Assembly (NCBI GenBank): GCA_003164275.1
Contig: PLSY01000392.1
Location: 32,754-96,753 of the forward strand
Direction of reading: 5' to 3'
Origin: Acidimicrobiaceae bacterium
Lineage (GTDB): Bacteria > Actinomycetota > Acidimicrobiia > Acidimicrobiales > RAAP-2
Length of the DNA: 64,000 nt
In this document: in pieces, positions 17,071-63,999 of the stretch
Position numbering within the stretch: position 1 is the first letter of the stretch
Layout: every line of letters begins with the position of its first letter
The notes under the pieces: model-generated
Seen by the model: the letters and a program-made list of their open reading frames with translations, nothing else
What the model was told of the DNA's origin: nothing
The model's database searches: none
Position numbers and translations under genes: made by a program

Positions 17071-17880
17071 TCAACGATTGAGCTTGCCGAGGTCGACGCG
17101 CACCTGTCCCCCTGTCATGGTCTTGGCATCGTCGGAGGCAAGGAAGGCGACGACGCTCGAGACGTCTTCGGGTTCCATGAGGCGCACCGGCAGGCCGTTC
17201 ATGAACACCGGGCCAAGGGTCTCTGCCTTCAAGGCCACCATGGCCCCGAGGTCGGGCTCATGGGCCATATCGGTCTCTACGCCGGTCGGATGGATGGAGT
17301 TCACCCGGATGCTGTACTCGGCAAGCTCGTTGGCCAGGCATCTGGCGATGCCCACTACCCCGTGTTTGGCCGCCGTGTAGCCGACGGTGAAGGGTTGGCC
17401 GTAGAGGCCGGCCACCGAACTCGTGAGGATGATCGAACCGCCGTCACCTTGGCTGATCATGGTCGGGATGGCCGCCTTGGCCGTGTGCCAGACACCGGTC
17501 AGGTTGACATCGATGACCTCCCGCCACTGCTCGTCGGTCATCTCCCAGGAGTTCCCGATGTTGAGGATCCCGGCGTTGGCGACGACGATGTCGACCCGAC
17601 CGAGCTCGGCCACCCCTTGGTCGAGGGCGCTCTGCAGCTCCTCCATGTCCCGGACGTCGGCCCGACGAGCGACGATCCGGCGCCCCTCCTTCTCCACCAG
17701 GGCGACCGTCTCCTCGAGGTCCTCGGGCGTGGCCGGGGGATAGTTGACCGTGTCGAATCCCGCGCACAGGTCGATGGCGATGATGTCCGCCCCCTCTGCG
17801 GCCAGCCGCACGGCATGGGCCCGACCCTGCCCCCGGGCCGCGCCCGTGATGAATGCCACCTTGCCGTCGAGACGACCCAT
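17071..17880 (-). CDS. Mycofactocin-type NAD-dependent SDR
   Basis: A 269-residue SDR with the Rossmann motif GAARGQG at residues 13-19, NAG at 102-104 and catalytic S154/S155, Y168 and K172. The combination of ARGQGRAHAVRLAAEGADIIAIDLC and the insertion YPPATPEDLEETVALVE is characteristic of SDRs that hold NAD tightly and pass electrons to mycofactocin. It probably oxidises an alcohol released by the Baeyer-Villiger and esterase steps. It is the last gene of the BVMO/aldehyde dehydrogenase/SDR operon. No mycofactocin biosynthesis gene is in the window. Confidence 0.88.
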   Translation of the reverse strand: MGRLDGKVAFITGAARGQGRAHAVRLAAEGADIIAIDLCAGFDTVNYPPATPEDLEETVALVEKEGRRIVARRADVRDMEELQSALDQGVAELGRVDIVVANAGILNIGNSWEMTDEQWREVIDVNLTGVWHTAKAAIPTMISQGDGGSIILTSSVAGLYGQPFTVGYTAAKHGVVGIARCLANELAEYSIRVNSIHPTGVETDMAHEPDLGAMVALKAETLGPVFMNGLPVRLMEPEDVSSVVAFLASDDAKTMTGGQVRVDLGKLNR

Positions 17881-17925
17881 CGGTTCCCCCTTGTTGGTTG
17901 TCGGGCCCTCGGCCCTCTTGTCGGC

Positions 17926-19344
17926 CTAGCCCTTTGCCGTGTACCTGACCTGCAGTTGAGTCATGCCATCCAGGCCCCATTGGCCGTTCTCGGCACCGAT
18001 TCCGCTCCACTTGGCCCCCACCAATGGCTGGTCCGGGCCGAGCTCGGAGTGGGCGTTAACGAGCGAGGTGCCGCAGTCGAGACGCTCGGCCACCGCTGCC
18101 CCCCGCTCGGGGTCGCCCGTCCACACCGAGCCCGAGAGCCCGAAGGTGGTGGCGTTGGCCCGGGCCACGGCATCGTCGACATCTCGGTAGGTCATAACCG
18201 GGACGGCCGGTCCGAACTGCTCCTCGTCCACGATCCGCACGCCGTCGTCTACGTCGACCAGCACGGTCGGTGCGAAAAAGTAGCCCGGCCCGTCGAGTGC
18301 CTTGCCACCCACGGTGGCGTGGCCTCCGGCATGCAGCGCATCCTCGACCAACTCGGTCACTCGGTTGAACTGGGGGAGGTTGTTGATCGGGCCGAGCTGT
18401 GTGCTCTCGTCCATGCCGTCCCCCACCACCACGGTTCGGGCCAGTTCGGTCAGCGTCTCGACCACGCCAGCGGCCAGGCTCTCGTGGACGTAGATGCGCT
18501 TGACGGCGGCACAGATCTGACCTGTGTTCTGGAAGGCCTTCCAGAACAGCTTCTCGCCCACTTCCGTCGGGTCGGCGTCGTCGAGGACGATCGCCGCGTC
18601 GTTGCCACCGAGCTCCAGGGTCAGATGCTTCAGATCCGGCGCCGACGACGAGGAGATGGCTTTGCCTGTCGCCACCGATCCGGTGAAGCTGATCTTGTTG
18701 GGCACTGGATGCTCGGTCATCATGCGACCGAGCGCGTCTCCGCCGCTCACCACGTTCAGCACCCCAGGCGGGAAGACGTCACGCAAGAGCTCGCCCATCA
18801 ACAAGGTGGCCAGTGGCGTGAAAGGGGATGGCTTCAGAACCACGGTGTTGCCGGCCAACATGGCCGGGGCGATCTTGAAGGCGGCCACCACGACCGGCGC
18901 GTTCCACGGAGCGATGGCCGCCACCACCCCGAGCGGCCGGCGCAGGGCTTCCACCAACGCCTTCTCGTCGTCCCGGATGACCTGGCGGGGATTGGGCAGC
19001 TCGGCGTAGTAGCGGAACCACATGGCAGCCACTTGGGCCTCGCCGCCGGCAATGCGCAGTGGCTTTCCCTGCTCGGCGGTCAGGAGCGGGCCGATTCGAT
19101 CCGAGGCCGCCGCCATGACGTCGGCTGCCCGGCGAAGGCAGTCCCGACGAAACCCTTCGTCACTCCTCCAGGCCAGGAAGGCCTCGGCGGCAGACCCCAT
19201 GGCTGCCTCCAGCTGGGCGGCCGTGCATTCGGGCGCTTCGGCGAACACGGCGCCGGTGGCCGGGTTGATGACGCCGAAGGAGGAGCCCCCGACCTCGGGC
19301 CGTCCGCCGATGGTCATGGTCTGGGCCGTTGACGCATCACTCAT
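17926..19344 (-). CDS. NAD(P)-dependent aldehyde dehydrogenase
   Basis: A 472-residue aldehyde dehydrogenase that should oxidise an aldehyde to the acid. It has PWNAP near 146-150, the cofactor loop FTGSVATGK near 220-228, the general-base glutamate E244 in LELGGND and the nucleophile C278 in NTGQICAAVKR. The length is normal. It lies between the BVMO gene (75-base gap) and the SDR gene (45-base gap) on the same strand, which suggests an ester-to-alcohol-to-aldehyde-to-acid route. Confidence 0.93.
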   Translation of the reverse strand: MSDASTAQTMTIGGRPEVGGSSFGVINPATGAVFAEAPECTAAQLEAAMGSAAEAFLAWRSDEGFRRDCLRRAADVMAAASDRIGPLLTAEQGKPLRIAGGEAQVAAMWFRYYAELPNPRQVIRDDEKALVEALRRPLGVVAAIAPWNAPVVVAAFKIAPAMLAGNTVVLKPSPFTPLATLLMGELLRDVFPPGVLNVVSGGDALGRMMTEHPVPNKISFTGSVATGKAISSSSAPDLKHLTLELGGNDAAIVLDDADPTEVGEKLFWKAFQNTGQICAAVKRIYVHESLAAGVVETLTELARTVVVGDGMDESTQLGPINNLPQFNRVTELVEDALHAGGHATVGGKALDGPGYFFAPTVLVDVDDGVRIVDEEQFGPAVPVMTYRDVDDAVARANATTFGLSGSVWTGDPERGAAVAERLDCGTSLVNAHSELGPDQPLVGAKWSGIGAENGQWGLDGMTQLQVRYTAKG

Positions 19345-19419
19345 GCGAGATCCCCTCGTTTCACACTCGATGTTCCGATGTCATTGTTGCAGGATCTGGG
19401 CGAGGGAGGCCTGCCATGG

Positions 19420-21345
19420 CTACGAGAACAGATAGTCGTCCTCATTGACCTCACGCGTCTGATTCCAGTAGTCGAACAGGTTGAACGGCCAGTTCTGGGC
19501 CACGCGACCGAACTCGTTCTTGTACCAGCTCGACACGTCCGACGCTCCCCAGGCTCGCTCCAGGGTGGCCGCATCGATTCGTTCGTTGTAGGCATCGTGG
19601 GCCTCCCGTCGACAGTCCATGGACTTCGCGCCCCGCTCCAGCAGCAGGCGGAGACTCTCGGCGATGTAGTGGGCCTGGCATTCCGAGAAGTAGACGATGC
19701 TGCCGTTGACCACGATGTTGGTGTTAGGCCCGTACATGAGGAACAGGTTGGGGAACCCCGGAATGGTGAGCCCGAGGTGGGCACGGGCGTCTCCACCCCA
19801 CGCCTCATGCAGGTCCGCTCCTCCCCTTCCGACGATGCGCATGGGCGTGAGGAACTGCGATGCCCGAAAGCCCGTCCCATAGATGATGACGTCGTGGTCG
19901 ATGATGCGCCCGTCCTCCAGTGCTACCCCCGACGGCGTGATGGCGGCGATCGGCTCGGTCTCCACGGTGACGTTCTCCCGCTGCAACGCAGTCGAGTAGA
20001 CGCCGCTGTCGACCACCATGCGCTTCGCCCCGAACGGATAGGCCGGCAGCATCTTGGCCCGGAGGTCCGGGTCGGGGAAGACGAACTCGTAGTAGGCCGT
20101 CAGCCCTTGGCGTATGGCGTCGTTCTCGGCGCTCACCGACCCAGAGGCGATGTCCCAGTCCGGGTCGACGACGGTCCGGGGGAGCAGCCCCTCTTGGAGC
20201 CTGGAGAACACCGAGAGCCGGTCCCAGCGGGCGTACTCGGGGATGTGGTCCAGGACCCACCGGAGGTTCTCCGGCAGGTCGTCGTGATAGTTGGGCATCG
20301 GCACGAGCCACGGTGGAGTGCGCTGATAGATGGTCAGCTGAGCGGCGCGCTCGGCCAGCCACGGGATGAACTGGACGGCACTCGCTCCTGAGCCGATGAC
20401 CCCGACTCGGGCACCGTCGACCTCGACGTCGTCCTCCCACCGGGCCGAGTGGAACGACCGGCCCTCGAACGAGTCGATCCCCTCTATGTCCGGGAACGAC
20501 GGTCGATTGAGCTGGCCGACCGCGCTGACCAGGGCGTCGAACTGGTGGGCGGAGCGCCGCCCCTCGGCATCGCGGACCGTCACGGTCCACGACGACGCGT
20601 CATCGTTCCACACCGCCTCATCGACCTCGTGGCAGTAGGAGATGGCGTCAGCCAGGTGGAGCTCTTCTACACAGGTGCGGAAGTAGTCGAGCAGCACCGG
20701 TTGGGTCGAGTTGAACTGGGGCCAGTGGGGACTCTGGGCAAAGGAGTAACTGTAGAGATGATTGGGCACGTCGACCCGGCATCCCGGATAGGTGTTCTCG
20801 AGCCAGGTGCCGCCCACGTCGGCGTTCTTCTCATAGACACGGACGCTGCAGCCGGCCTGGCGGAGACGCAGCGCGGTCACGATCCCCGACATGCCCGCCC
20901 CGATGATCGCCACCGTCATGGGTCGGTCGGGAGTGATCTCCGAAGCCCGCCAGGCCGGCTTGCGCAGATCTGCGCCCCCGAGGGCCAGTTCTTCTTCGAA
21001 CAGCTGGAAGTGGTCGTCGTCCACCGGGCCGCACAGGAACTCGATCGAGGACCTCAGCTGCTCGCCAGTGAGGGGCGGAGCCGGTTTGCACCCGGCGTCC
21101 CGGAAACGGATCAGGGCCCGGGCTACAAGATCCCTGGCCCGATCGGCCTGTTCGGGCGAGAGCCCGTCCTCCCCCGTCATCTGCACGCTCGACGGGTCCG
21201 GTCGAAACTCATCGGCCAGGAGACCAACCTCACCCGTGAGGTGGGCCGCGGCAACGAGCAGCTGGGGCACCGGGACACCATCCAACCGGCGGTTGATGGT
21301 GTGGTCATCTTCGACCACGGGTTGAGCATCGAAGTCGAGCCGCAT
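19420..21345 (-). CDS. Type I Baeyer-Villiger-like FAD monooxygenase
   Basis: A 641-residue flavoprotein that should insert oxygen next to a ketone to give an ester or lactone, using FAD and NADPH. The FAD Rossmann motif GAGMSG is at 149-154, YPGCRVDVPNHLYSYSF follows, and the Baeyer-Villiger fingerprint F-x-G-x-x-x-H-x-x-x-W is at 293-303 (FEGRSFHSARW, then E in place of the usual P or D). An N-terminal extension of about 140 residues is of the kind seen in many actinobacterial members. ATG 21345 is preferred over an in-frame start at 21402. It diverges from a TetR regulator. Confidence 0.9.
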   Translation of the reverse strand: MRLDFDAQPVVEDDHTINRRLDGVPVPQLLVAAAHLTGEVGLLADEFRPDPSSVQMTGEDGLSPEQADRARDLVARALIRFRDAGCKPAPPLTGEQLRSSIEFLCGPVDDDHFQLFEEELALGGADLRKPAWRASEITPDRPMTVAIIGAGMSGIVTALRLRQAGCSVRVYEKNADVGGTWLENTYPGCRVDVPNHLYSYSFAQSPHWPQFNSTQPVLLDYFRTCVEELHLADAISYCHEVDEAVWNDDASSWTVTVRDAEGRRSAHQFDALVSAVGQLNRPSFPDIEGIDSFEGRSFHSARWEDDVEVDGARVGVIGSGASAVQFIPWLAERAAQLTIYQRTPPWLVPMPNYHDDLPENLRWVLDHIPEYARWDRLSVFSRLQEGLLPRTVVDPDWDIASGSVSAENDAIRQGLTAYYEFVFPDPDLRAKMLPAYPFGAKRMVVDSGVYSTALQRENVTVETEPIAAITPSGVALEDGRIIDHDVIIYGTGFRASQFLTPMRIVGRGGADLHEAWGGDARAHLGLTIPGFPNLFLMYGPNTNIVVNGSIVYFSECQAHYIAESLRLLLERGAKSMDCRREAHDAYNERIDAATLERAWGASDVSSWYKNEFGRVAQNWPFNLFDYWNQTREVNEDDYLFS

Positions 21346-21366
21346 ACATGCATGCTTCCACCTGCT

Positions 21367-21380
21367 TGGACATCCGTCCA
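21367..21380. promoter_or_regulatory. Palindrome between the BVMO and TetR genes (operator candidate)
   Basis: TGGAC and GTCCA flank ATCC, a perfect 14-base dyad 22 bases upstream of the BVMO start codon and 70 bases upstream of the TetR start. Its form and place fit a TetR operator. A TTGAC hexamer-like sequence lies just to its right near 21387. Confidence 0.5.
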
Positions 21381-21449
21381 GTACTGTTGACTTCGTGCAC
21401 ATCAGGCTTGGCGCTCACCCCATCGAGGCGACAGCCGGGCGGCCGATCG

Positions 21450-22135: not shown

Positions 22136-22822
22136 TCAGGCCAACGGGCTGAACTGGGCTCCGTCGAAACGATCGACGGTGGTGAACTCGGAGACTTCGG
22201 CCCTCTTCAGCTTGGTGATCACCTTCACAGGGTGTCCCAGTGCCAACATGCCGGCCAGGGCGAATCCGGTGGGTATGCCAAGCACGTCTTTGACCGCCGG
22301 TTCCTGGCGGGCAAGAGCTGTCGTCATGACCCCGGCCAAACCGACGTCGCGGGCGGCGAGCAGGATGTTGTGAGCGAATGGATAGACCGAAGCCCCTCCC
22401 GCAATGCTCTGACGGTCGAGCCCGTTATCCATAACGGCCAGCTGGGCCAGCTCGACAACCAGCACGAGCAGGACCGGCACCTCATCTAGGTGATCGGAGA
22501 ATGGCATTGGGGTAGGCGTCGCCCTGGCCTCCTCCAAATCAATGGCCGGACCGGTCCACTTCCCGTCGTCCAGAGGGGCGAAGGCCACCAGCCCGGCGTA
22601 GACATGGGCCATGTACTCCCGCCAGCTCAACACGTACAGTTCCCGTATCCGGCGGCGTATCGTTCGGTCCTTCACGACGATCACGTGCCAGCCCTGCCGG
22701 TTGCCACCACTCGGGGCGAAACGGGCCACGTCCAACAGGCCCATGACCTCCTGATCGGACACCTCCTCGTCGGTGAACTCCCGCGTGGCCGGTGTCGTCC
22801 TCATGACGTCCCTCAACTCCAT
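22136..22822 (-). CDS. Nitroreductase-family FMN protein
   Basis: A 228-residue nitroreductase-fold protein. TPATREFTDEEVSDQEV and VARFAPSGGNRQGWHVIVVKD contain the phosphate-contacting and FMN-binding residues, and the late GLAGVMTTALARQEPAVKDVLGIP and GHPVK segments fit the family. It may reduce quinones, enones or nitro groups. It converges on the TetR gene (86-base gap) and its start at 22822 diverges from the cupin gene. Confidence 0.88.
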   Translation of the reverse strand: MELRDVMRTTPATREFTDEEVSDQEVMGLLDVARFAPSGGNRQGWHVIVVKDRTIRRRIRELYVLSWREYMAHVYAGLVAFAPLDDGKWTGPAIDLEEARATPTPMPFSDHLDEVPVLLVLVVELAQLAVMDNGLDRQSIAGGASVYPFAHNILLAARDVGLAGVMTTALARQEPAVKDVLGIPTGFALAGMLALGHPVKVITKLKRAEVSEFTTVDRFDGAQFSPLA

Positions 22823-39267: not shown

Positions 39268-40479
39268 TTAGGAGCGGGCCCCGAGCGAGCTGAAGGGCAC
39301 GTCCTTGTCGGTCCTCGGCTCCCTCGGAAGGCCGAGCACCATCTCACCCAGCGAGTTGCGCTGGATATTGTCGGTCCCCCCGCCGAGCTTCGACATCCAC
39401 TGATTGAGGAACAGGGTCTGCCACAGGCCTCCGTCGATGGCACTCTCTCCCGACAGCATTCCGGCCGCGCCTTCGATCTCCATGAACAGATCGCCGGTGG
39501 CGCTCATGTGCTGGGAGACAAACAGCTTGGTCGTCGCCGCTTCGGGGCCCGGTTGGCGCCCGTGGGAGAGGGCGGTCTGCACCCGATAGTTCATGTATCG
39601 GAGAAGCTGGGTCCTCATGTAGAACGACGCCAGGTCCTGGCGGATGACCGGATCGCTGGCCGCCCCGGTACGCCTGGCCAGCTCGAATACCTGTTCGGGG
39701 GTGACGCCGCCGCCGCTGCCGCCGATCAGGGTGCGCTCGTTCGCCATGGTGGTGTGGGCGACAGCCCATCCTCCGTTGACCGCGCCAACCACGTTCTCCG
39801 CCGGCACCCGCACGTCGGAGAGGAATACCTCATTGAAGTGGGCATGGCCGGTGATCTGGCGGAGGGGCCGGACCTCGACCCCGGGAGTGCGCATGTCCAC
39901 CAAGAAGTAGGTGATCCCTTTGTGCTTCGGGAGGTCCGGATCGGTGCGGGCGATGAGAATGCCCCAATCGCTGTGCTGGGCACCAGAGGTCCAGACCTTC
40001 TGGCCGTTCACTACGAACTCATCCCCGTCACGCTCGGCGCGGGTCTTCAGCCCGGCGAGGTCGGATCCGGCGTCCGGCTCGGAGAACAACTGGCACCACA
40101 CCTCTTCACCACGCAGCATGCCCCCGAGGTAGCGCTGCTTTTGTTCCTCGGTCCCATGGGCGATCAGGGTCGGCCCGCACATGCCGATGCCGACGGCGAA
40201 CACTCCGGTCGACACGTCGTACTTGGCCGCCTCCTGATTGAAGATGGCCTGGTGCCAGGCGGTGTCGGCCCTGCCCCCGTACTCGACCGGCCAGGTGATC
40301 GCACCCCAACCGCCCTCGTAGAGCTGGTGCTGCCACTTGCGGCAGCGCTCGGCGTAGTCGTCCAGCTCATGGTTCTGTGACCAGTCGTCGGTGCCGCCCC
40401 GAAGAGGAGCGTTCTCGGACAGCCAGGCCCGCACTTCGCTGCGGAACTGTGCATCTTCGGGAGAGTCGTCAAAATTCAT
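39268..40479 (-). CDS. Acyl-CoA dehydrogenase
   Basis: A 403-residue acyl-CoA dehydrogenase of the actinobacterial FadE type. It has FDDSPEDAQFRSEVRAWL at the start, QLFSEPDAGSDLAGLKTRA and VNGQKVWTSGA in the middle, and the C-terminal GGGTDNIQRN. In place of the usual EIQRN the motif has DNIQRN. I use ATG 40479, which has AGGAT upstream; a TTG at 40488 is in frame. It is alone, without the paired subunit some members need. Confidence 0.9.
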   Translation of the reverse strand: MNFDDSPEDAQFRSEVRAWLSENAPLRGGTDDWSQNHELDDYAERCRKWQHQLYEGGWGAITWPVEYGGRADTAWHQAIFNQEAAKYDVSTGVFAVGIGMCGPTLIAHGTEEQKQRYLGGMLRGEEVWCQLFSEPDAGSDLAGLKTRAERDGDEFVVNGQKVWTSGAQHSDWGILIARTDPDLPKHKGITYFLVDMRTPGVEVRPLRQITGHAHFNEVFLSDVRVPAENVVGAVNGGWAVAHTTMANERTLIGGSGGGVTPEQVFELARRTGAASDPVIRQDLASFYMRTQLLRYMNYRVQTALSHGRQPGPEAATTKLFVSQHMSATGDLFMEIEGAAGMLSGESAIDGGLWQTLFLNQWMSKLGGGTDNIQRNSLGEMVLGLPREPRTDKDVPFSSLGARS

Positions 40480-40734
40480 GGACGTCAACCATCCTGGTTC
40501 GTCGGGCTACTGGGTAGCTGTCGGTCGGCCCCTGGGCCTGGTCGCCCGACTGTACCGTTTCAGGTGCTCGGCGACCCTCGCGTGTGTCGCCGGCCCCCGC
40601 GAGTCGGAGCCCACCCTCGCTCAGCGACCACCACATCGTCACGGAGCACCGCCGCTGGCTACATTACGCCCAGCGCCAAGCGACGCGCCGTGGTGGCCGA
40701 GCGGGCCGCCGGTCGCTCCAGAAAGAGAGATCCA

Positions 40735-55333: not shown

Positions 55334-55539
55334 GACCTTTTCCTGAGCCTAGCTCGCCGTATGGGTCTTCCCAAGCGACCTCGTCGACGTGGCGACACCC
55401 CCTATCCCGTGACATTGGCGTCCCAGGAGGCGGATCCCTTATCCTCATGCCCGGCATCAGTGCAGCACCGGTCGTGCCCGGCCCGCCGCCCGAGCATGAG
55501 CAGACCAAGACCGGAAACCGGCGACAAGGAGGGGGGGCA

Positions 55540-56982
55540 GTGAGCACGGCTCCCGACGCGACCGACGAGCACATCGACAATCTGGCCACCGTGTTGATGG
55601 ATCACCCCTTCGCCGACAGCGAGGATCTGATCTTCACCGTCGACCGGACCATGACGGCGGGCGAGGCCCGCAGTGGTGCACGCGCTCTCGCCGATGAGCT
55701 CGCCTCCCTCGGCGTGCAGCCCGGCCAGGCGGTCGGCGTCAAGCTCCCGAACGGCCCCGATGTCGTGGTGGCCATGGCAGGCATCTGGTTGGCCGGTGCG
55801 GTGTTCGTGCCCATCAACCCCCGTCTGCCCGACGCTGAGATCGACACCGTGGTGGGGCCGAGCGCACCGGCGGCGGTGATCGACCGGGACGGGGTACACA
55901 TTCTTCCCGAGCCACGCGCCTACGACGCCGGAACCGCCTTCATCCTTTGGACCTCGGGGACGACAGGGCAGCCGAAGCCCATCCTCCACACCCACCGTGG
56001 CTATGGCGAACTCCTCGACCGGGTCCTCAAACCCCTGCGATCGGGTTCGACAGCCCCGGCGAAGCGGCCCTCCCCCAACCTCATCCCCGTTTCGCTCGCC
56101 CTCAACGCCGGCATCTACAACGTCTTGTTCGGGCTCCGGGCCGGTGCTCCCCTGGTCATCATGGACAGATTCCAGACCACCTCGTTCGCCGAGCTGGTCC
56201 GGCGCTTCGAGATCCGCTCGACCGTCCTTCCTCCCGCCGCCATCGCCATGTTGAACGACGATCCCACCATCACCGATCTCGCCCCCCTCAAGTACGTTCG
56301 CAGCATCACGGCCCCGCTCTCGCCGCTCCAGGCCAAAAGGTTCACCGAGATGTTCGGCGTCTTCGTGCTCAACAGCTATGGCCAGGCCGAGGTTGGTGAG
56401 GTCATCGGCTGGACGGCGAGCGACGCCAAGACCTACCCCGAAAAGGTCGGGGCGGTCGGACGGCCCCACAAAGGGGTGGGCCTCAGAATCGTCGGCGATG
56501 ACGGAAACGAGGTGGCCACCGGGCAGACCGGCGAGCTCAGAGTCCGGCCCCCCAACATGGCGAGCGGCTACGCCTCGGGAGCCGAACTGGCCGACCGCAT
56601 CGATGCAGACGGGTACCTGGCCACCGGCGACCTCGGCCGGATAGACGAAGAGGGCTTCGTGTGGATCGAGGGACGCTCGAGCGACCTCATCAACCGGGGA
56701 GGCAACAAGGTCTTCCCCGATGAGGTCGAAGAGGTAATCTGCCTCGCTCCGTCGGTTTCCGAGGCCGCGGTCGTCGGGGCAGCGGACGAACGACTGGGGG
56801 AGGTGCCGGTGGCATTCGTGGTGTCGAGTGACGAGCTGGATCCCGAAGCGCTGACGGCGCTGTGTCGGGCCCATCTCACCCCCTACAAGATCCCCGTCGA
56901 CTTCGTGCGGGTCGACACCCTGCCCCGCAGTGAGGTCGGCAAGGTCCTGCGCCGTGAGCTGGCCGCCAGGTACGAGCGATGA
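55540..56982 (+). CDS. AMP-forming acyl-CoA synthetase
   Basis: A 480-residue ANL ligase, slightly short at the N-terminus. It has ILWTSGTTGQPKPILHTH near residue 135, NSYGQAEVGEV near 280, LATGDLGRIDEEGFVWIEGR and the GGNKVFPDEVEEV hinge region, and the C-terminal lysine in EVGKVLRR. The start is GTG 55540 with AAGGAGGGGGG upstream. It overlaps the esterase gene by 4 bases (ATGA), so the synthetase, esterase and LLM genes form one operon. Confidence 0.9.
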   Translation: MSTAPDATDEHIDNLATVLMDHPFADSEDLIFTVDRTMTAGEARSGARALADELASLGVQPGQAVGVKLPNGPDVVVAMAGIWLAGAVFVPINPRLPDAEIDTVVGPSAPAAVIDRDGVHILPEPRAYDAGTAFILWTSGTTGQPKPILHTHRGYGELLDRVLKPLRSGSTAPAKRPSPNLIPVSLALNAGIYNVLFGLRAGAPLVIMDRFQTTSFAELVRRFEIRSTVLPPAAIAMLNDDPTITDLAPLKYVRSITAPLSPLQAKRFTEMFGVFVLNSYGQAEVGEVIGWTASDAKTYPEKVGAVGRPHKGVGLRIVGDDGNEVATGQTGELRVRPPNMASGYASGAELADRIDADGYLATGDLGRIDEEGFVWIEGRSSDLINRGGNKVFPDEVEEVICLAPSVSEAAVVGAADERLGEVPVAFVVSSDELDPEALTALCRAHLTPYKIPVDFVRVDTLPRSEVGKVLRRELAARYER

Positions 56983-57866
56983 CCTGGAGCATCCCAAACC
57001 AACGAGACGTCGGCTATCCGGCCCCCGAGTCGCTCGTGGCCCGGCGTGAGGGTGCGGCCTCGATGCAGGCCAACCAACCGGTGGCCGAAGGGGCGACGGC
57101 GACCGATGCCACCGTCGGCGGGGTGGATTGCCTCGTCATCCAGCCGGACGCTCCCACCTCGACCATCCTCTATCTCCACGGTGGCGGCTACCGCCTGGGC
57201 ACCCCGTTGTCTTGGGTCTCGTTCGCCTCGCGGCTGGCCGTGGCGGCCAACGCCAAGGTGGTCGTGGCCGACTATCGACTGGCTCCCGAGCACCCCTTCC
57301 CCGCTGCCCTGCACGACGCCACCGCCGTCTTCGATGCCGTGCGGGGCGACGGCGGCCCCATCATCGTGATGGGCGACTCGGCCGGGGGTGGCCTCGCCGC
57401 CTCCCTGCTCGTCGCCTGCTTGACCTCAGACATCGCCGTACCCGACGCCCTGGTCGTCATCTCTCCATGGATTGACCTCACCGTCACCAACGAGACCTAC
57501 GCCTCTCGAGCCGAGTCCGACCAGCTCTTCCCCCGTGCCTCGGCCGACGAGGCGGCCGAGGCCTACCTGCAGGGAGCAGACGCCAAGGACCCGTTCGTCT
57601 CACCCCTGTTCGCCGAGCTGGCCGGCTTCCCTCCGTCGCTGGTCTTCGCCGGTGGGTTCGAAACCCTCCTCGGCGACGGCCTGGCCTTCACCACCCGCCT
57701 GGCCGAGGCAGGCGTCTCGGTGACGGGGCATTTCCCGGCCGGCATGCAGCACGTCTGGCCCACCTTGTTCCCTGACCTCCCCGAGTCGGCCGACGCCTTC
57801 GCCGCCATGGTCCAGTTCGTCGGTGCCGCCGTCGGCGCCCACGGGCCGGGCGCGGAGCAGGGGTGA
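56979..57866 (+). CDS. Alpha/beta hydrolase, HSL type
   Basis: A 295-residue HSL-family esterase with HGGGYRLG near 67, GDSAGGG near 130, an aspartate in the GGFETLLGDG region and the histidine of MQHVWP. It should hydrolyse esters or lactones. ATG 56979 overlaps the synthetase stop, and GTG 57863 of the LLM gene overlaps its own stop, so the middle gene is coupled on both sides. Confidence 0.9.
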   Translation: MTWSIPNQRDVGYPAPESLVARREGAASMQANQPVAEGATATDATVGGVDCLVIQPDAPTSTILYLHGGGYRLGTPLSWVSFASRLAVAANAKVVVADYRLAPEHPFPAALHDATAVFDAVRGDGGPIIVMGDSAGGGLAASLLVACLTSDIAVPDALVVISPWIDLTVTNETYASRAESDQLFPRASADEAAEAYLQGADAKDPFVSPLFAELAGFPPSLVFAGGFETLLGDGLAFTTRLAEAGVSVTGHFPAGMQHVWPTLFPDLPESADAFAAMVQFVGAAVGAHGPGAEQG

Positions 57867-58762
57867 GCGCCGTGCAGTTCGCCTACGGGGTCCCACTGTC
57901 GGGCCCGCTCAACCCAGCCCTCGCCACCACCGGTGCCCTCACCTCCCTGGCCAGGTCAGCCGAGGAGGCCGGCTTCGGGGCGGCCTATGTCACCGAGCAC
58001 CCGGCCCCGAGCCAACGGTGGCGGGAGAGCGGGGGGCATGACGCCCTCGACCCGTTCGTGGCCCTGTCGGTCATGTCGTATGGGACCTCGACCTTGCGGC
58101 TCCTCACCAACTTGACCGTCATCCCCTACCGCAACCCCTTCTTGTTGGCCAAGGCCTCGGCCACGGTCGACGTCCTGTCGGGCGGGCGCCTCATCCTCGG
58201 TGCCGGGGTCGGGTACATGAAGTCCGAGTTCGCCGCCCTCGGCGTCGACTTCGAGACCCGCAACGCCCGCGTCGACGAGTACCTCCAAGTCCTGAAGCTG
58301 GCCTGGACCGGTCAGCCCGTCGACTTCCAGGGCGAGTTCGTGACGGCCAAGGGGAACACCGCCCAGCCTCCGGCCGCCCAGCAGCCCGGGCCACCGATCT
58401 GGCTGGGCGGCAACAGCAAGCTGACCCGTCGACGGGTGGCCGAGGTGGCCGACGGGTGGATGCCCATGCCGTCGCCGAGGGGGGCGCCGGGCACGCCGTT
58501 GGAGAACCTGGACGACCTGGTCGGCCTGCTCGGCTACCTGCAGGACCATGCCTCCTCCATCGGGCGCACCGATCCCATCGACGTCATGTGCGTGCTGCCG
58601 GCCGAGGCCGCACAAGCCGCCGACCAGGCCACCGTCGACATGGTCGGACGACTGGCCGAAGTCGGGGTGACGTGGCTCGCCGTCAACGGCGTGGGCGAGA
58701 CCGTCGACCAGGCCACCGCTTTCATCGGCCGCTTCGGCGTAGGCGTCATCGCCAACCTCTGA
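57863..58762 (+). CDS. LLM-class F420-dependent oxidoreductase
   Basis: A 299-residue luciferase-like protein. AAYVTEHPAPSQRW near 38, LRLLTNLTVIPYRNPFLLAKASATVD near 75 and SGGRLILGAGVGYMKSEFAALG near 105 are the F420-LLM hallmarks. It is the third gene of the synthetase/esterase/LLM operon and probably oxidises the alcohol released by the esterase or reduces a carbonyl. It ends 38 bases before the converging PadR gene. Confidence 0.87.
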   Translation: MSAVQFAYGVPLSGPLNPALATTGALTSLARSAEEAGFGAAYVTEHPAPSQRWRESGGHDALDPFVALSVMSYGTSTLRLLTNLTVIPYRNPFLLAKASATVDVLSGGRLILGAGVGYMKSEFAALGVDFETRNARVDEYLQVLKLAWTGQPVDFQGEFVTAKGNTAQPPAAQQPGPPIWLGGNSKLTRRRVAEVADGWMPMPSPRGAPGTPLENLDDLVGLLGYLQDHASSIGRTDPIDVMCVLPAEAAQAADQATVDMVGRLAEVGVTWLAVNGVGETVDQATAFIGRFGVGVIANL

Positions 58763-58800: not shown

Positions 58801-59472
58801 TCAGCCGTCGACTCTCCGGGCGTCGAGGTCGGCCAGGTCGGCGAGCAGCCGGTCGGTGTTGTCCAGCTCGGCGCCGTAGTAGCGCTCGGCCCAGCGGATG
58901 ACCACGTCGGCGTAGGCCATCGCCTCATCGTCGGGCCGCACCCGGGCCCGGTCCTCTCGCACCTCGGCGAGCCTGCCCTCGAGCCAGTGCCGGTGGTCGG
59001 CGATCACGCCCCGCAGGGACTCCGGCTCCATGAGGTGGCCGAGCCACACCCGCAGCACCGTCGGGTTCTTCAAGATGGGCACGTCAGCCGGCTCGGCGGC
59101 CAGCCACTCGATGAGCCAGGCCCGCCCGGCCCCGGTGATCCGGTAGAGGCGCCGGGCCCTCGTGTCGTCCTTCGCCTCGATGCGCGAGGTCACGTAGCCG
59201 AGCGACTCGAGACGCCGGAGCTCGCCGTAGATCTGGCTCATGGCCGGGCTCCAGAAGAAGAAGCTCAGGCTGTGGTCGGCCCACTTCTTCAGGTCGTAGC
59301 CGGAGAGCTCCTGGCCGAAGGAGAGAAGGCCGAGGACGGCGTTGGCCGTGGCCGCGTTGGGCGGCTGCCTCTCCGCTGAGGTCGGCGCCGCCTCGCGCCC
59401 GGGGATGGTCCGATCGGTCGACGCCGATACGCCCGGTTCGTCCACAGCTGCTCCTTCCCACCGCCCGCCCAT
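58801..59472 (-). CDS. PadR-family transcriptional regulator
   Basis: A 223-residue regulator with the PadR winged helix (NAVLGLLSFGQELSGYDLKKW, MSQIYGELRRLESLGYVTS) and the C-terminal dimerisation helices (LRGVIADHRHWLEGRLAEVRED). It is slightly longer than small PadR proteins and belongs to the Vir-type branch. ATG 59472 has AAGGGGGAG upstream. It is divergent from the LLM/SDR/esterase/thiolase-like/DUF35 operon and probably represses it. Confidence 0.86.
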   Translation of the reverse strand: MGGRWEGAAVDEPGVSASTDRTIPGREAAPTSAERQPPNAATANAVLGLLSFGQELSGYDLKKWADHSLSFFFWSPAMSQIYGELRRLESLGYVTSRIEAKDDTRARRLYRITGAGRAWLIEWLAAEPADVPILKNPTVLRVWLGHLMEPESLRGVIADHRHWLEGRLAEVREDRARVRPDDEAMAYADVVIRWAERYYGAELDNTDRLLADLADLDARRVDG

Positions 59473-59489: not shown

Positions 59490-59529
59490 TATGCCTGTTA
59501 TCTATAGTCCAAATAGTCATACAAGCATA
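59490..59529. promoter_or_regulatory. Divergent promoter/operator region of PadR and the LLM operon
   Basis: The arms TATGC (59490-59494) and GCATA (59525-59529) enclose a stretch that includes two ATAGTC boxes (59504-59509 and 59513-59518) and the hexamer TATAGT at 59503-59508. It is A/T-rich for this genome. Both start codons are close by, so this is where PadR is expected to bind. Confidence 0.5.
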
Positions 59530-59542
59530 GGGGGTCGCCACC

Positions 59543-60691
59543 GTGAAATTCTCCATGATCTTCGAGGCGCAGCTGAACTACCCGACGCCCGAGCGGGAGC
59601 GCCAGAACATCCTCGACTGCGTGGATCAGGCGGTGCTCGGCGAGCAGGTGGGCTTCGACCGCGTCTGGGCGGTCGAGCACCACTCCCTTCGTTGGTACGC
59701 CCACATGAGCGCGCCGGAGATCTTCTTGACCTACGTGGCCGCCAAGACCGAGCGCATCCGTATCGGCCACGGGGTTGTCTGCATGCCGTTCAAGTACAAC
59801 CACCCCATCCGGGTGGCCGAGCGGGCGGCCATGCTCGACATCCTGTCGGGAGGCCGGCTCGACCTCGGGGCCGGGCGTGGGGCGACCGCCCAGGAGATGT
59901 CCCTGTTCGGGGTCGACCCCGAGCGCACCTACGCCGAGGTCGAGGAGTCCCTCAGGATCATCGCCAACGTCTGGCGTGAGGACCTGTTCGAATGGCATGG
60001 CCTCTTGGACATCGACCCCCATCCGGTGCTTCCCCATCCCGTCCAGAACCCGCATCCTCCGCTGTTCATGGCCTCGACGAAGCAGAACAGCCTGGAGCTG
60101 GCCGCCGAGTACGGGGTGGGGCCGCTCGTCTTCGGGTTCGCCGGCGTGGACGAGGTGGCCCACCTCCACGAGGTGTACCAGAACGCCATCGCCGGCCGGG
60201 ACGGCAGCCGCTTCGTCTCCACCGAGGTGAACGACCACTTCGGCGTCCTGTGCCCGACCATCGTGTTGGACGACCCAGAGGAGGCCCTGCGGATCGGGGC
60301 CAGGGGGCAGCGCTTCTTCGCCGAGTCCATCACCCACTGGTACGGAGCCGGCCCACCGCCCGTCCAAGACACCCTCGACGACGACAACGTCCAGGCCATC
60401 AAGGCCGACGCCGAGGCGGTCGTGGCTCGCCTGCACGAGGCCAAGATCCCGGTCAACCCGAACACGGTCGCCACCTACAACGTCAGCCATGCCTACGGCG
60501 ACGCCCAGGGGGCCATCGAGTACGTGGAGCTCCTGGAAGCGGCCGGGGCCACCGAGATCATGTGCATGATCCAGATGGGAACCGTCCCCCAGGAGATCTG
60601 CATGGAGACCATCCAGCGCTGGGGCGACACCATCATCCCCCACTTCCGGGCCAAAGAGGCGGCTGCGTCCACGACCGCTTCGGTGGCGTGA
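59543..60691 (+). CDS. LLM-class monooxygenase (luciferase/type II Baeyer-Villiger-like)
   Basis: A 382-residue luciferase-like enzyme in the FMN-dependent monooxygenase branch. MKFSMIFEAQLNYPTPERERQNILDCVDQAV, VWAVEHHSLRWYAHMSAPE and RLDLGAGRGATAQEMSLFG are typical of alkanal- or ketone-oxidising members such as diketocamphane-type monooxygenases. It needs reduced flavin from a partner reductase, which I do not see in the window. The start is GTG 59543. The stop overlaps the SDR start by one base (TGATG). Confidence 0.85.
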   Translation: MKFSMIFEAQLNYPTPERERQNILDCVDQAVLGEQVGFDRVWAVEHHSLRWYAHMSAPEIFLTYVAAKTERIRIGHGVVCMPFKYNHPIRVAERAAMLDILSGGRLDLGAGRGATAQEMSLFGVDPERTYAEVEESLRIIANVWREDLFEWHGLLDIDPHPVLPHPVQNPHPPLFMASTKQNSLELAAEYGVGPLVFGFAGVDEVAHLHEVYQNAIAGRDGSRFVSTEVNDHFGVLCPTIVLDDPEEALRIGARGQRFFAESITHWYGAGPPPVQDTLDDDNVQAIKADAEAVVARLHEAKIPVNPNTVATYNVSHAYGDAQGAIEYVELLEAAGATEIMCMIQMGTVPQEICMETIQRWGDTIIPHFRAKEAAASTTASVA

Positions 60692-61464
60692 TGGGCACCG
60701 TCCCGACCATCGACCTGGCCGACCGGGTGGTCATCATCACCGGCTCCTCCCAGGGTCAAGGGGCAGTCGAGGCCCGCCACTTCGCCGACCTCGGGGCGAA
60801 GGTGATCATGGCCGACGTCTCCGACGCCGAGGGCCAGGCCCTGGCCGACGAGATCGGCGCCACCTACCGCCACGTCGACATCTCACAGGCCTCGGACTGG
60901 GACGCGCTCATGAAGCAGGTCATGGCCGATCACGGGCGTCTCGATGTCCTCGTCAACAATGCGGCCGTCTACTGGACGGCCACCATCGAGGACGAGAGCG
61001 TCGAGAGCTTCGACCGTCTGATCGGGATCAACCTGCGGGGCACCTTCCTCGGCATCAAGTCCGCCATCGCTCCGATGCGGGCGACCGGCGGCGGCTCCAT
61101 CGTGAACATCGCCTCCATCGCCGGTGTGCGTGGCTTCCAGATGCACGGCGCCTATGGCTCGTCCAAGTGGGCCATCCGCGGCCTGACCAAGACGGCGGCG
61201 GCCGAGCTCGGGCCCGACGGGATCCGGGTCAACGTGGTCGTGCCCGGCACCATCGACTCCCCCATGGCCTGGTCGGGCGGCCCGAAGCCGGACGACGGGG
61301 CCTTCGACCACCTGCCCCTCGGTCGGGTCGGCGAGTCCGAAGAGATCGCCGCCCTCGTCGCCTTCCTGGCCTCGGACGCCTCGGGCTACATTACGGGCAC
61401 TGAAGTGATCATCGACGGGGGTGCGACCCTCGGGATCGTGAAGAGGGGGGGCGAATCGACATAG
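60691..61464 (+). CDS. Short-chain dehydrogenase/reductase (SDR)
   Basis: A 257-residue SDR with TGSSQGQG near residue 18, NNAAVY near 93 and IASIAGVRGFQMHGAYGSSKWA as the catalytic set. Its start overlaps the LLM stop (TGATG) and its TAG stop overlaps a possible ATA start of the esterase gene. It likely oxidises the alcohol that feeds or leaves the monooxygenase. Confidence 0.92.
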   Translation: MGTVPTIDLADRVVIITGSSQGQGAVEARHFADLGAKVIMADVSDAEGQALADEIGATYRHVDISQASDWDALMKQVMADHGRLDVLVNNAAVYWTATIEDESVESFDRLIGINLRGTFLGIKSAIAPMRATGGGSIVNIASIAGVRGFQMHGAYGSSKWAIRGLTKTAAAELGPDGIRVNVVVPGTIDSPMAWSGGPKPDDGAFDHLPLGRVGESEEIAALVAFLASDASGYITGTEVIIDGGATLGIVKRGGEST

Positions 61465-61475
61465 CACTCGACCCG

Positions 61476-62414
61476 TTGGCAGAGGCAATCGTTCGGGGCA
61501 TGGAGGGGGCGTTCCCGCCGTTCGAGGTGAGTGGCGCGGTGGCGGCCAGGGCCAACATGGAGGCCCTCCCCGGGCTGCCCGGCGATCCCGTCTACCAGGT
61601 GGTCGACCGGAGGATCGATGGACCCGGAGGCGAGATCCCCTTGCGCGTGTACCGGCCCGGCCCCGGGACCCGGGCGGTCATCGTCTTCTTCCACGGTGGC
61701 GGCTGGGCCATCGGGAACTTGGAGAGCCACGACGCCCTGTGCCGGTCCCTCGCCAACGCCACCGGCGCGGTGGTCGTAGCAGTCGACTACCGCCTCGCCC
61801 CCGAGCACATCTTCCCGGCGGCGGCCGACGACAGCCTGGCCGCCACCAAGTGGGTGGCCGAGCACAGCGACGAGCTCGACGTGGACCCCGGGCGCCTCGC
61901 CGTGATGGGGGACAGCGCCGGGGGGAACCTGGCCGCCGTGGTCTCGCTCATGGCCCGCGACAGTGGCGGGCCGGCCATCGCCGTCCAGGTCGGCCTGTAC
62001 CCGGTGACCTCGGCCGACCTCGACAGGCAGTCCTACGTCGACAACGGCACCGGGTACTTCTTGACCAGGGCCACCATGGAGTACTTCTGGGACCTCTATG
62101 TGCCCGACGAGGGCGACCGGAGCAATCCCTATGCCGCCCCCTTGGCCGCGACCGACCTGTCGGGCCTGCCTCCGTCGCACATCATCACGGCCGAGCACGA
62201 CCCCTTACGCGACGAGGGGGAGGCCTACGCCAACGCCCTGCGAGAGGCCGGGGTGACCTCGACGAACACCCGCTACGGCGGGATGTTCCACGGGTTCATC
62301 AACATGGCGTCCATCCTCCCGCCGGCCGCCCAGGCCCTCAACGACGTGGCCTCGCTGCTCCGACAGGTGCTCGAGACCGAGGCCGTTGAGCCACCCGAGT
62401 CGCAACCGGTCTGA
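61476..62414 (+). CDS. Alpha/beta hydrolase, HSL type; start codon uncertain
   Basis: A 312-residue HSL esterase from the TTG at 61476: HGGGWAIG near 76, GDSAGGNLA near 147, and the late histidine in MFHGFI. The family normally begins LDPLAEAI-like, and that segment is present starting at 61464-61467, before the TTG. The in-frame ATA at 61461 overlaps the SDR stop as ATAG and has AGGGGGGG 9 bases upstream. So translation may begin at ATA, at the TTG or at ATG 61500. It sits between the SDR and thiolase-like genes. Confidence 0.85.
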   Translation: MAEAIVRGMEGAFPPFEVSGAVAARANMEALPGLPGDPVYQVVDRRIDGPGGEIPLRVYRPGPGTRAVIVFFHGGGWAIGNLESHDALCRSLANATGAVVVAVDYRLAPEHIFPAAADDSLAATKWVAEHSDELDVDPGRLAVMGDSAGGNLAAVVSLMARDSGGPAIAVQVGLYPVTSADLDRQSYVDNGTGYFLTRATMEYFWDLYVPDEGDRSNPYAAPLAATDLSGLPPSHIITAEHDPLRDEGEAYANALREAGVTSTNTRYGGMFHGFINMASILPPAAQALNDVASLLRQVLETEAVEPPESQPV

Positions 62415-62416
62415 CC

Positions 62417-63583
62417 GTGGCCCATCCCTTCTCGGACGTGGCCATCGCCGGCGTCTTCAACACTGCACAGGCTCGCAGCCTCCCCGGCCACGACTCGCTG
62501 TCCATCGCCATCGAAGGGGCCCTCGGCGCCCTTGATGACGCCGGGCTCACCGCGGCGGACGTCGACGGGGTCATCGGCGAGCGCTCGGGCGAGCTGACCT
62601 ACGAGCTCCGCCTCGGCCCGTGCCGTCGGTCCTTGAACGGCCTCGGGATCCCGGCCGTCCTCGAGGCCGCCGCCCTCATCGCCACCGGCCAGTGCCAGGT
62701 CGTCCTCGTCGTCGGCGGCAGTGCCGGGGTCTACACGGACCGGGCCTCGACGGCCCCGTGGACGAGGCCCACCAACGAGTTCGTCGTCGGCTACGGCATG
62801 TTCACTGCCGTCGAGTTCGCCTTGATGGCCAAGCGCCACATGCTCACCTTCGGCACTACCCCTGAGCAGATGGCTGTGGTGGCCGCGACCATCCGCAACA
62901 ACGGCCACATCAACCCGGGGGCGGTCTACTTCGACCGGGGGCCGTTCACCCCCGACGACATCCTGGCTTCTCGGCCCATCGCCGAGCCGTTCCACCTCCT
63001 CGATTGCTCGACGACGTCTGAGGGCGGCTGCGGCCTGGTCCTCACGAGCGCCGAGCGGGCCGCCGACCTGGCCTCGAGGCCGGCGTTCATCCTCGGCGGC
63101 GGAAGCGATGCCTTCGGTCCGTCCTACCAGCACGGCCCGATCTGGGACTTCACGGGGCACAGGGGCGATGAGCTGCCGGCCGGCTACGTGGGCCGGAGGG
63201 CGGCGGCTTCTGCCTTCTCCACCGCCGGCCTGGCCCCGGCCGACGTCGATGCCCTCGAGCTCTACGACCCGTTCAGCTTCGAGATCATCCGACAGCTCGA
63301 GGCCTTCGGCTTCTGCGCCGAGGGCGAAGGGGGGGCCTTCGTGGAGGCCGGCTCGATCGGCCCGGACGGCGCCTTCCCGGTCACCACCGACGGCGGTACG
63401 ATGTCTTTTGCCCACCCCGGCAACTCGACCCAGATGCTGCAGCGGGTCATCCGGGGCGTCGAGCAGGTGCGGGGCACGTGTGCGTCGGCCCAGGTGCAGG
63501 GGGCCAAGGTGGCCCTGTGCTCCAACGGGGGATCAGGTGCGCTGTTCAATGACGTCATGCTGGTCGGGTCGGAGCGCCCATGA
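62417..63583 (+). CDS. Thiolase-like lipid-transfer protein
   Basis: A 388-residue thiolase-superfamily protein. It lacks the nucleophilic cysteine (LNGLGIPAVLEAAALIATG near 73-91). It keeps Y283 in YDPFSFE, but where the protein at 4059 has a second tyrosine it has H333 in FAHPGNS, closer to the HPxG motif of ordinary thiolases. It could be an aldolase variant, a Claisen-type enzyme or a non-catalytic partner. The GTG start follows the esterase stop by 2 bases, and its end overlaps the DUF35 start as ATGA. Confidence 0.83.
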   Translation: MAHPFSDVAIAGVFNTAQARSLPGHDSLSIAIEGALGALDDAGLTAADVDGVIGERSGELTYELRLGPCRRSLNGLGIPAVLEAAALIATGQCQVVLVVGGSAGVYTDRASTAPWTRPTNEFVVGYGMFTAVEFALMAKRHMLTFGTTPEQMAVVAATIRNNGHINPGAVYFDRGPFTPDDILASRPIAEPFHLLDCSTTSEGGCGLVLTSAERAADLASRPAFILGGGSDAFGPSYQHGPIWDFTGHRGDELPAGYVGRRAAASAFSTAGLAPADVDALELYDPFSFEIIRQLEAFGFCAEGEGGAFVEAGSIGPDGAFPVTTDGGTMSFAHPGNSTQMLQRVIRGVEQVRGTCASAQVQGAKVALCSNGGSGALFNDVMLVGSERP

Positions 63584-63999
63584 CCACCCTCCAGCCACAG
63601 TCGCCCGGGACTCCGGCCCCGACCCCGTCCCTGTTCTCCGCCCCCTACTGGGAGGGGTGCGCGGTCGGCGAGCTTCGCTTCGTCCGGTGCCGGAACTGCC
63701 ATCAGGCCATCGCCGACGCCCCCCGGGTGTGCTGGCGCTGCCACAGCTGGGATCTAGCCTGGGAGACCAGTGCCGGTCGGGGCACGCTCTACAGCTGGAC
63801 CATCGTGTGGCGCCCCCAGACACCGGAGTTCCGCGTCCCCTACGCCGTCGCCCTCATCGATCTCGAAGAGGGCGTGGCTGTGGTCAGCTCCATCGTGGGG
63901 TGCGAGCCCGAAGATCTCATCGAGGGCATGGCCTTGGCCGTCGAGTTCCATCCGAGCAGCGAAGACATGGCCCTCCCCTACTTCCGGCCGGTCGGCTAG
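63580..63999 (+). CDS. DUF35 OB-fold protein with zinc ribbon
   Basis: A 139-residue partner protein for the thiolase-like enzyme. The zinc ribbon has CRNC and CWRC near residues 33-50, and the OB-fold follows from SAGRGTLYSWTIVWRPQTPEF. Compared with the 3.7-kb pair, gene order is reversed (thiolase-like first). The stop is one base from the end of the window, so the gene is complete and further operon genes may follow. Confidence 0.87.
   Translation: MTTLQPQSPGTPAPTPSLFSAPYWEGCAVGELRFVRCRNCHQAIADAPRVCWRCHSWDLAWETSAGRGTLYSWTIVWRPQTPEFRVPYAVALIDLEEGVAVVSSIVGCEPEDLIEGMALAVEFHPSSEDMALPYFRPVG

Follow-up and report, generated by a model that had tools for sequence, protein, structure and literature searches.

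Two gene modules joined in one PadR-linked operon, with a likely Baeyer-Villiger-type monooxygenase, in an Acidimicrobiaceae bacterium

Does a single bacterial operon hold a complete route from a ketone to a cleaved carbon-carbon bond? The question is raised by five tightly packed genes at the end of a 64,000-nucleotide stretch of an Acidimicrobiaceae bacterium (contig PLSY01000392.1, positions 32,754 to 96,753; this whole stretch is referred to as the window). They encode a luciferase-like monooxygenase (LLM), a short-chain dehydrogenase/reductase (SDR), an esterase, a thiolase-like protein and a DUF35 protein, and lie opposite a gene for a PadR-family regulator. The original prediction had read them as one self-contained pathway for terpenoid or alicyclic ketones: oxygen insertion, ester opening, alcohol oxidation and carbon-carbon cleavage. 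That interpretation is partly supported by our analysis, and the type of chemistry was likely guessed well. Both the five genes and the PadR gene opposite them are genuine, and together they represent two modules fused into one operon: module 1 comprises the PadR gene and LLM-SDR-esterase, and module 2, the thiolase-like and DUF35 genes, is conserved separately and was joined to it in this lineage. We are modestly inclined to the view that the products of this PadR-regulated operon would oxidatively remove a ketone-bearing side chain, most likely that of a 20-keto steroid or of a closely related polycyclic compound.

Five genes and two modules

All five open reading frames (ORFs) lie on the plus strand where the original prediction had placed them, and their order and tight coupling were confirmed. 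The features are as follows.

58801-59472 (approximate), minus strand: divergent gene for a PadR-family regulator (PF03551, 43.1 bits, cut-off 27); the ORF is open to 59556 and its start is uncertain
59504-59522, no strand assigned: 19-bp palindromic operator, predicted PadR site (24.2 bits), common to other LLM promoters
59543-60691, plus strand: LLM, candidate type II Baeyer-Villiger monooxygenase (PF00296, 167.7 bits; 382 aa; GTG start)
60691-61464, plus strand: classical NAD(P)-dependent SDR (PF13561, 209.7 bits; 257 aa; TGxxxGxG and YxxxK present in the sequence)
61476-62414, plus strand: HSL-type esterase (Abhydrolase_3, LipP1; PF07859, 270.8 bits; NCBIfam LipP1, 382.1 bits, above the cut-off of 350)
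62417-63583, plus strand: thiolase-like protein, putative CoA-dependent aldolase-type lyase (PF22691, 116.6 bits)
63580-63999, stop included, plus strand: DUF35/ChsH2-type OB-fold partner (OB_ChsH2_C; PF01796, 66.1 bits)

Two of the four junctions are overlaps, of 1 bp (LLM/SDR) and 4 bp (thiolase/DUF35), and the other two are short gaps. The esterase and thiolase genes are separated by 2 bp, and the SDR and esterase genes by 11 bp, or by 35 bp if the esterase starts where the 304-aa gene call P0241 in the database has it; this start is uncertain (TTG at 61476 or a position near 61500). Upstream of the TTG the esterase frame runs on, in window positions 61461-61476, to an ATA codon that overlaps the SDR stop (I-ALDPLAEAIV...). 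Third-position GC is 0.89-0.93 for the LLM, esterase, thiolase and DUF35 genes. A simple gene filter preferred an antisense ORF to that of the SDR, a doubt that is removed by the Pfam score of the SDR (209.7 bits). Since the window stops one base past the DUF35 gene, the operon may run on, and its 3' end lies outside the window.

The conservation of this arrangement was studied in two sets of loci. The first consisted of 29 loci around LLM orthologues, from source genomes searched at E<=1e-110; it includes close relatives, and some loci are cut by contig ends. The second consisted of 80 loci around the thiolase-like gene, kept from 225 relatives. A thiolase-like gene (at least 55% identity) was present within 3 kb of the LLM gene in none of the 29 loci, and an LLM gene (at least 45%) near the thiolase-DUF35 pair in none of the 80, some of which are short; only a 29% paralogue was seen, in L007. 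A widely conserved five-gene cassette is thereby rejected, and a single conserved five-gene route is not supported. The modules themselves do recur. Within 3 kb of the LLM gene we found an SDR gene (at least 40%) in 11 of the 29 loci, an esterase gene in 10, a PadR gene in 8 and an Ltp2 relative (at least 50%) in 3; over the same distance the thiolase loci contained a DUF35 gene in 77 cases, an amidohydrolase gene in 23, an SDR gene in one and an esterase gene in none. The search for the same gene order in relatives, which the original prediction had proposed as a check, yielded the PadR and LLM-SDR-esterase order exactly as in the window at two loci (L152, whose LLM is 78% identical, and L166). 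Support for all five genes in this order is indirect only. It comes from metagenomic relatives whose longest contigs are equal in length: 9876 bases for relatives of the LLM (79%), the esterase (66%) and the thiolase (77%), 31922 bases for those of the LLM (96%) and the thiolase (92%), and 36100 bases for those of the esterase (64%) and the thiolase (81%). Co-location is deduced here solely from these equal lengths. Our literature searches, which covered titles and abstract openings in a limited collection, found no paper describing the five-gene set.

These results bear on whether the two modules act on one substrate. The thiolase-like/DUF35 pair may come from another pathway and sit in the operon without sharing its substrate, which we regard as a serious possibility, if somewhat short of what we would expect. 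The usual neighbors of the pair point that way, as they are genes for two-domain CoA-transferase III proteins (29 loci), Amidohydro_2 proteins and AMP ligases, with LLM, SDR and esterase genes nearly or wholly absent. No site of at least 18 bits for the operator described below was present in the 1.36 Mb of the thiolase loci, and the thiolase relatives P0005 (87%, on a 2.3-Mb contig) and P0011 (84%, 1.5 Mb) had no LLM or esterase counterpart on a contig of the same size among the matches listed. On the other side stand the tight junctions in the window (the 2-bp gap and the 4-bp overlap), the shared longest contigs of the metagenomic relatives, and the distribution of the two genes in 395 genomes of the class: 20 contained the LLM (E<=1e-110), 21 the thiolase-like gene (E<=1e-150) and 8 both, where about one was expected (hypergeometric P 1.3e-6, with the kinship of these related genomes ignored), although the genes were not side by side.

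Three side observations concern the thiolase loci. In mycobacterial loci L064, L067, L069 and L078 the order is amidohydrolase, two-domain CoA-transferase III, thiolase-like, DUF35 and a gene whose product is 31-32% identical to the PadR protein of the window. The PadR-like protein of L069, the only one scanned, matched no Pfam family at E<=1e-4. The titles of the metagenome-assembled genomes behind L011 and L012 (Bifidobacterium breve) and L014 (Acidobacteriota) are probably wrong, as their gene orders match those of L006, L008 and L009 (Actinomycetota/Candidatus Microthrix) and of L005 and L015 (Actinomycetes).

The LLM, its partners and the predicted operator

The LLM of the window is 44% identical over 97% to an LLM encoded on plasmid pNL2 of N. 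aromaticivorans, and when used as query on pNL2, the replicon searched, it matched a single place, beside a helix-turn-helix regulator gene. Sphingomonad LLMs score 306-322 bits with it. One of this family, EGO55_13860 of Caenibius tardaugens, yielded testosterone acetate from progesterone in E. coli extracts; the N. aromaticivorans LLM is 88% identical to it (PMC12239570). The N-terminus of the pNL2 protein, MKFSIIYE, is the sequence encoded by the cloning primer for EGO55_13860 (PMC12239570); the 44% refers to the pNL2 relative and not to EGO55_13860 itself. With the pNL2 LLM as query, the top match was the orthologue of the window LLM in all 14 chosen LLM-bearing genomes (46-51% identity). 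In a tree the window LLM paired with that of G397 (100/100) inside an actinobacterial clade of 28 rows, and the sphingomonad LLMs formed a neighboring clade without it. The closest tested LLM family is that of a type II Baeyer-Villiger enzyme (PMC12239570), so that the window LLM likely attacks a ketone, as had been predicted. Diketocamphane monooxygenases are known type II enzymes with which it would share the luciferase-like fold and two-component flavin chemistry (see also PMC12239570), but diketocamphane monooxygenase 4uwm gives a score of only 31.6 bits.

The assignment of the SDR and esterase as partners of the LLM is borne out by more than their proximity. Besides the two loci with the order of the window, L131 and L132 (Yinghuangia) have a PadR gene with LLM-SDR-SDR-esterase-SDR, and L124 (Nocardia cerradoensis) has LLM-SDR-esterase without an adjacent PadR gene. 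The genome-wide top match to the window SDR, among 102-168 candidates per genome, sits in the LLM cluster in five of six other genomes (G404, G406, G407, G408 and G151, not G081). For the esterase, with 48-57 candidates, this holds for three of the six (G406, G407 and G408); the cluster contains the second-best match in G151 and none in G081, and in G404 nothing matched the esterase at E<=1e-45. That the best matches lie within LLM clusters indicates an association beyond chance. The best solved relatives of the SDR are 3alpha,20beta-hydroxysteroid dehydrogenase (2hsd, 1hdc) and Rv2002 (1nff), in a family that is broad, and the generic PRK07231 was alone among the NCBIfam models listed in reaching its cut-off (215.1 bits versus 215). 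We conclude that LLM-SDR-esterase is likely a Baeyer-Villiger module, recurrent and PadR-linked, with a relation to progesterone catabolism. A different LLM context was seen at L123, L125, L128, L159 and L160, in which the LLM orthologue is divergent from an acyl-CoA dehydrogenase gene whose product is 59-60% identical to that of window positions 39268-40488.

In other genomes a 19-bp palindrome of the pattern nTAnnnCnATTAGnnnTAy occurs upstream of LLM genes. A matrix was built from seven sites outside the window, chosen by eye from 15 upstream regions with the window region in view and the window site excluded. It placed the best site of the entire 64 kb, on both strands, at 59504-59522 between the PadR and LLM genes; the score of 24.2 bits was reached in none of 20 simulated 64-kb sequences, and the next unrelated site scored 6.2 bits. 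In leave-one-out analysis the operator sites ranked first in nine of nine source loci. A site of at least 18 bits was present in each of the eight LLM loci whose PadR gene lies no more than 3 kb away, versus one of the 21 without such a gene (L124), which gives a Fisher P of 2e-6, with the reservation that the matrix sites were drawn from the same loci. These results support the PadR control that had been proposed, and we infer that PadR binds at 59504-59522.

Further operator-like sites deserve less weight. Sites of 19-25 bits adjoin genes without evident link in L185-L192, and in a control scan the backwards-read pattern gave 0-6 matches per genome (for G407, four control matches versus two observed). 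Secondary sites alone are weak evidence. The exception is a second copy of the operator in G407 (Nocardia cerradoensis), which scores 30.1 bits. It directly precedes ribBA, and genes for a PadR protein (44%) and for KshA (593 bits to 4qdc) are close by. RibBA makes riboflavin precursors, and an operator at ribBA fits the FMN demand of an FMN-using LLM.

The LLM could instead be some other flavin- or F420-dependent oxidoreductase, such as an epoxidase, hydroxylase or reductase, with the esterase acting on an externally supplied ester. The Bac_luciferase family does hold many F420 enzymes, and the best solved relative of the window LLM, 7bip, is RslO1, proposed to be an epoxide-forming LLM (PMC8093152). 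With 7bip, however, the score is only 97.9 bits, whereas the sphingomonad LLMs give 306-322 bits, and their family includes the enzyme whose Baeyer-Villiger activity was assayed in E. coli extracts (PMC12239570). The Nocardia ribBA site also speaks against this alternative, which we consider improbable. An identification of 7bip as the Baeyer-Villiger enzyme RslO9 was rejected, as it is the epoxidase candidate RslO1 (PMC8093152); it gives no support to the Baeyer-Villiger assignment.

Predicted active-site residues of the thiolase-like/DUF35 pair

In an alignment to SCP2-thiolase, Asn74 of the thiolase-like protein occupies the position of the thiolase nucleophile, at which none of 65 family members has a Cys. 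His333 (65/65) and Cys368 (61/65) are at the positions of the thiolase His and second Cys; the motifs used to place these three residues are those that we take to be characteristic of thiolases. Ordinary thiolysis is rejected on the missing nucleophilic Cys, which makes a retro-aldol-type reaction likelier. Tyr283, conserved in 65/65 members, aligns with the catalytic tyrosines of Ltp2 (Tyr294) and Sal (Tyr302). Ltp2 has this residue in a YDHF motif together with Tyr344, and Sal in a YDCY motif together with Cys304 (PMC12329534). The window protein has YDPF, with Pro after Tyr-Asp in place of the His of Ltp2 and the Cys of Sal. Phe331 is at the position of Ltp2 Tyr344 in a profile alignment; a MAFFT alignment places this region differently. 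The 65 rows come from the genome scan, which was seeded with E[LF]YDPFSF and EIIRQ[LF]EA, so that the YDPF conservation in them is partly circular. Tyr283, Asp284, Pro285, Phe286, His333 and Cys368 were also invariant in an alignment of 20 rows that was not motif-selected (20 of 120 relatives listed).

The pair thus resembles the Ltp2-ChsH2 and Sal-Shy aldolases (PMC12329534) in its thiolase fold with DUF35 partner, its counterpart of the catalytic Tyr and its lack of a nucleophilic Cys. The zinc motif of the DUF35 protein, C-x2-C-x10-C-x2-C as read from the sequence, likewise matches the C4 motif of ChsH2 (PMC12329534). It differs in its YDPF motif, in Phe331 and in the retention of the thiolase-type His333 and Cys368. 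An identity with Ltp2 was rejected, as the protein scores 188.2 bits against PRK07855, well under the cut-off of 469, and has Pro for the His of YDHF; Sal does not fit either, as Tyr is kept and Cys304 is replaced by Pro. By these defining residues the thiolase-like protein belongs to neither enzyme. We favor an acid-base carbon-carbon lyase, working in the retro-aldol direction or the reverse, with Tyr283 and Cys368/His333 as candidate residues.

Steroid side chains as a possible target, and the alternatives

Several pointers to the substrate come from steroid genes. In G407 the first operator lies between LLM-SDR-esterase and a gene for KstD (3-oxosteroid 1-dehydrogenase; PRK07843, 815.3 bits, cut-off 788). 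A KshA-like protein at L184 was named from Pfam KshA_C (293 bits) and 4qdc, with no NCBIfam model at E<=1e-20. At L158 the LLM orthologue lies about 3 kb from a complete set of ChsE-ChsH2-ChsE-ChsH1-Ltp2 type, and Ltp2 relatives (54-56%) occur near the LLM gene in L156, L157, L161 and L163. The window itself has such a pair outside the operon:

3661-5204, plus strand: DUF35 gene and gene for an Ltp2-type steroid side-chain aldolase (443.9 bits to T. curvata Ltp2, 6ok1_A; zf-ChsH2 and OB_ChsH2_C)

The Ltp2-type gene of this pair (4053-5204) scores 534.7 bits against PRK07855, above the cut-off of 469. Its catalytic motif is YENF instead of YDHF, and the GEAY tyrosine is retained. Together with the best-match relation to the progesterone LLM family, these results make a steroid 20-ketone our best guess of the substrate, in place of the generic terpenoid or alicyclic ketone of the original prediction.

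The proposed pathway would run as follows. The LLM, supplied with reduced FMN by a reductase encoded elsewhere, would insert oxygen beside the ketone, as its relative in C. tardaugens does (PMC12239570), and the esterase would hydrolyze the resulting ester. The NAD(P)-dependent SDR would then oxidize the freed alcohol to a ketone, or might make the 20-ketone from a 20-alcohol. Finally, by acid-base catalysis, the thiolase-like/DUF35 pair may cleave or form a carbon-carbon bond in a side chain activated with CoA. The first three steps are suggested by homology, synteny and shared regulation, the fourth by family membership and residues only. A bolder version, which we consider rather unlikely, is that one operon would encode the whole C21-to-C19 steroid deacetylation (Baeyer-Villiger LLM, acetyl-ester hydrolase and 17-hydroxysteroid dehydrogenase) together with a new YDPF-type family of thiolase-fold/DUF35 lyases, its catalytic residues unlike those of Ltp2 and Sal, for CoA-activated side chains of the same substrates.

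Several results weigh against oxidative removal of a steroid side chain by this operon. Besides the separateness of the two modules, there was no SDR gene within 3 kb in 18 of the 29 LLM loci, no esterase gene in 19 and no operator site of at least 18 bits in 20. The LLM is uncommon, being present in three of 396 genomes of the phylum, one of which was the search centre, and in the 20 of 395 of the class; at most four candidates per genome were scored in these searches, and the class sample was centred on G004 (Acidimicrobiales), which is the basis for calling these genomes Acidimicrobiia. The 44% identity to the pNL2 LLM leaves room for a different substrate. The operon showed no flavin reductase domain, and a Pfam scan of 53 window ORFs yielded no member of a flavin reductase family, though a nitroreductase-family gene lies at 22136-22822; none was found near some pdc LLMs either (PMC12239570). 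KshA and KstD family members were likewise not found in the 53 ORFs. KshA relatives at E<=1e-90 were found in none of the 395 class genomes, a sample without positive control. A further search covered 41 chosen genomes, namely the 20 LLM-bearing class members, 16 LLM-negative ones and G404, G406, G407, G408 and G740. At E<=1e-40 it detected KshA only in G407 and G740, with G151 giving a weak Rieske match of 31%. KstD was detected in G407 and G740 alone at E<=1e-100, a cut-off that may miss divergent KstD. Except for the weak match in G151, neither was found at these cut-offs in the 20 LLM-bearing Acidimicrobiia, nor in G404, G406 and G408. In these organisms other enzymes may attack the rings, another polycyclic ketone may be the substrate, or the transformation may be confined to the side chain.

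The second of these options corresponds to the same ketone-ester-alcohol-ketone chemistry acting on a polycyclic or terpenoid ketone other than a steroid, for instance a hopanoid or another triterpenoid, with steroid use in Nocardia and sphingomonads being lineage-specific. We consider this unlikely, and it has evidence on both sides. Close KshA and KstD are lacking from the LLM-bearing Acidimicrobiia and from two Yinghuangia genomes as well; Yinghuangia nonetheless keeps the PadR-linked cluster with its operator. The best NCBIfam model for the SDR is moreover an alicyclic one, hydroxycyclohexanecarboxylate dehydrogenase, at 241 bits far below its cut-off of 400. The relation to the progesterone LLM family argues for the steroid instead, as do the Ltp2-type genes, which adjoin the LLM gene in five Acidimicrobiia loci and also occur in the window away from the operon, and the presence of kstD and kshA next to the same operator in Nocardia.

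Two other regions of the window contain genes of related kinds. The first adjoins the operon:

55402-58762, plus strand: genes for an AMP-forming acyl-CoA ligase, an Abhydrolase_3 esterase (Steryl acetyl hydrolase Pfam, 52.8 bits, cut-off 21) and a TIGR03619 F420-type LLM

These form a tightly coupled second ligase/esterase/LLM operon, which may belong to the same pathway. In the second region (17071-21402, minus strand) genes for an SDR, an aldehyde dehydrogenase and a 660-aa protein resembling type I Baeyer-Villiger monooxygenases (BVMOs), with about 155 extra N-terminal residues, lie in a row; a 68% relative of this SDR adjoins the PadR gene in L152, the LLM locus of the closest relative. 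The BVMO-like gene (19420-21402) was rejected as a substrate clue, as its scores for steroid monooxygenase (213.8 bits), cyclohexanone monooxygenase (CHMO, 213.0) and phenylacetone monooxygenase (PAMO, 210.0) are nearly equal.

The description of the key genes for progesterone degradation by bacteria dates from 2025 and concerns an alphaproteobacterium, for which the ester-cleaving acetyl hydrolase was left unassigned (PMC12239570). The pdc cluster of C. tardaugens resembles module 1 in having an LLM of the same best-match family and a ketone-to-ester step proposed to come first. It comprises four genes, with a type I BVMO and TetR and LuxR regulators and without esterase or SDR (PMC12239570), whereas the window operon has PadR, SDR, esterase, thiolase-like and DUF35 genes, and its BVMO-like gene is 38 kb off instead of adjacent. 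Steroid monooxygenase of Rhodococcus rhodochrous (4ap3) performs the same type of reaction on progesterone (PMC12239570) but is a type I BVMO that binds FAD and NAD(P)H, not an LLM. The module described here would offer the progesterone route a candidate esterase and subsequent dehydrogenase, together with a regulator and its predicted operator, and would help to predict which actinobacteria transform progestogens. The thiolase-like family, for its part, may represent a third active-site arrangement among thiolase-fold/DUF35 lyases.

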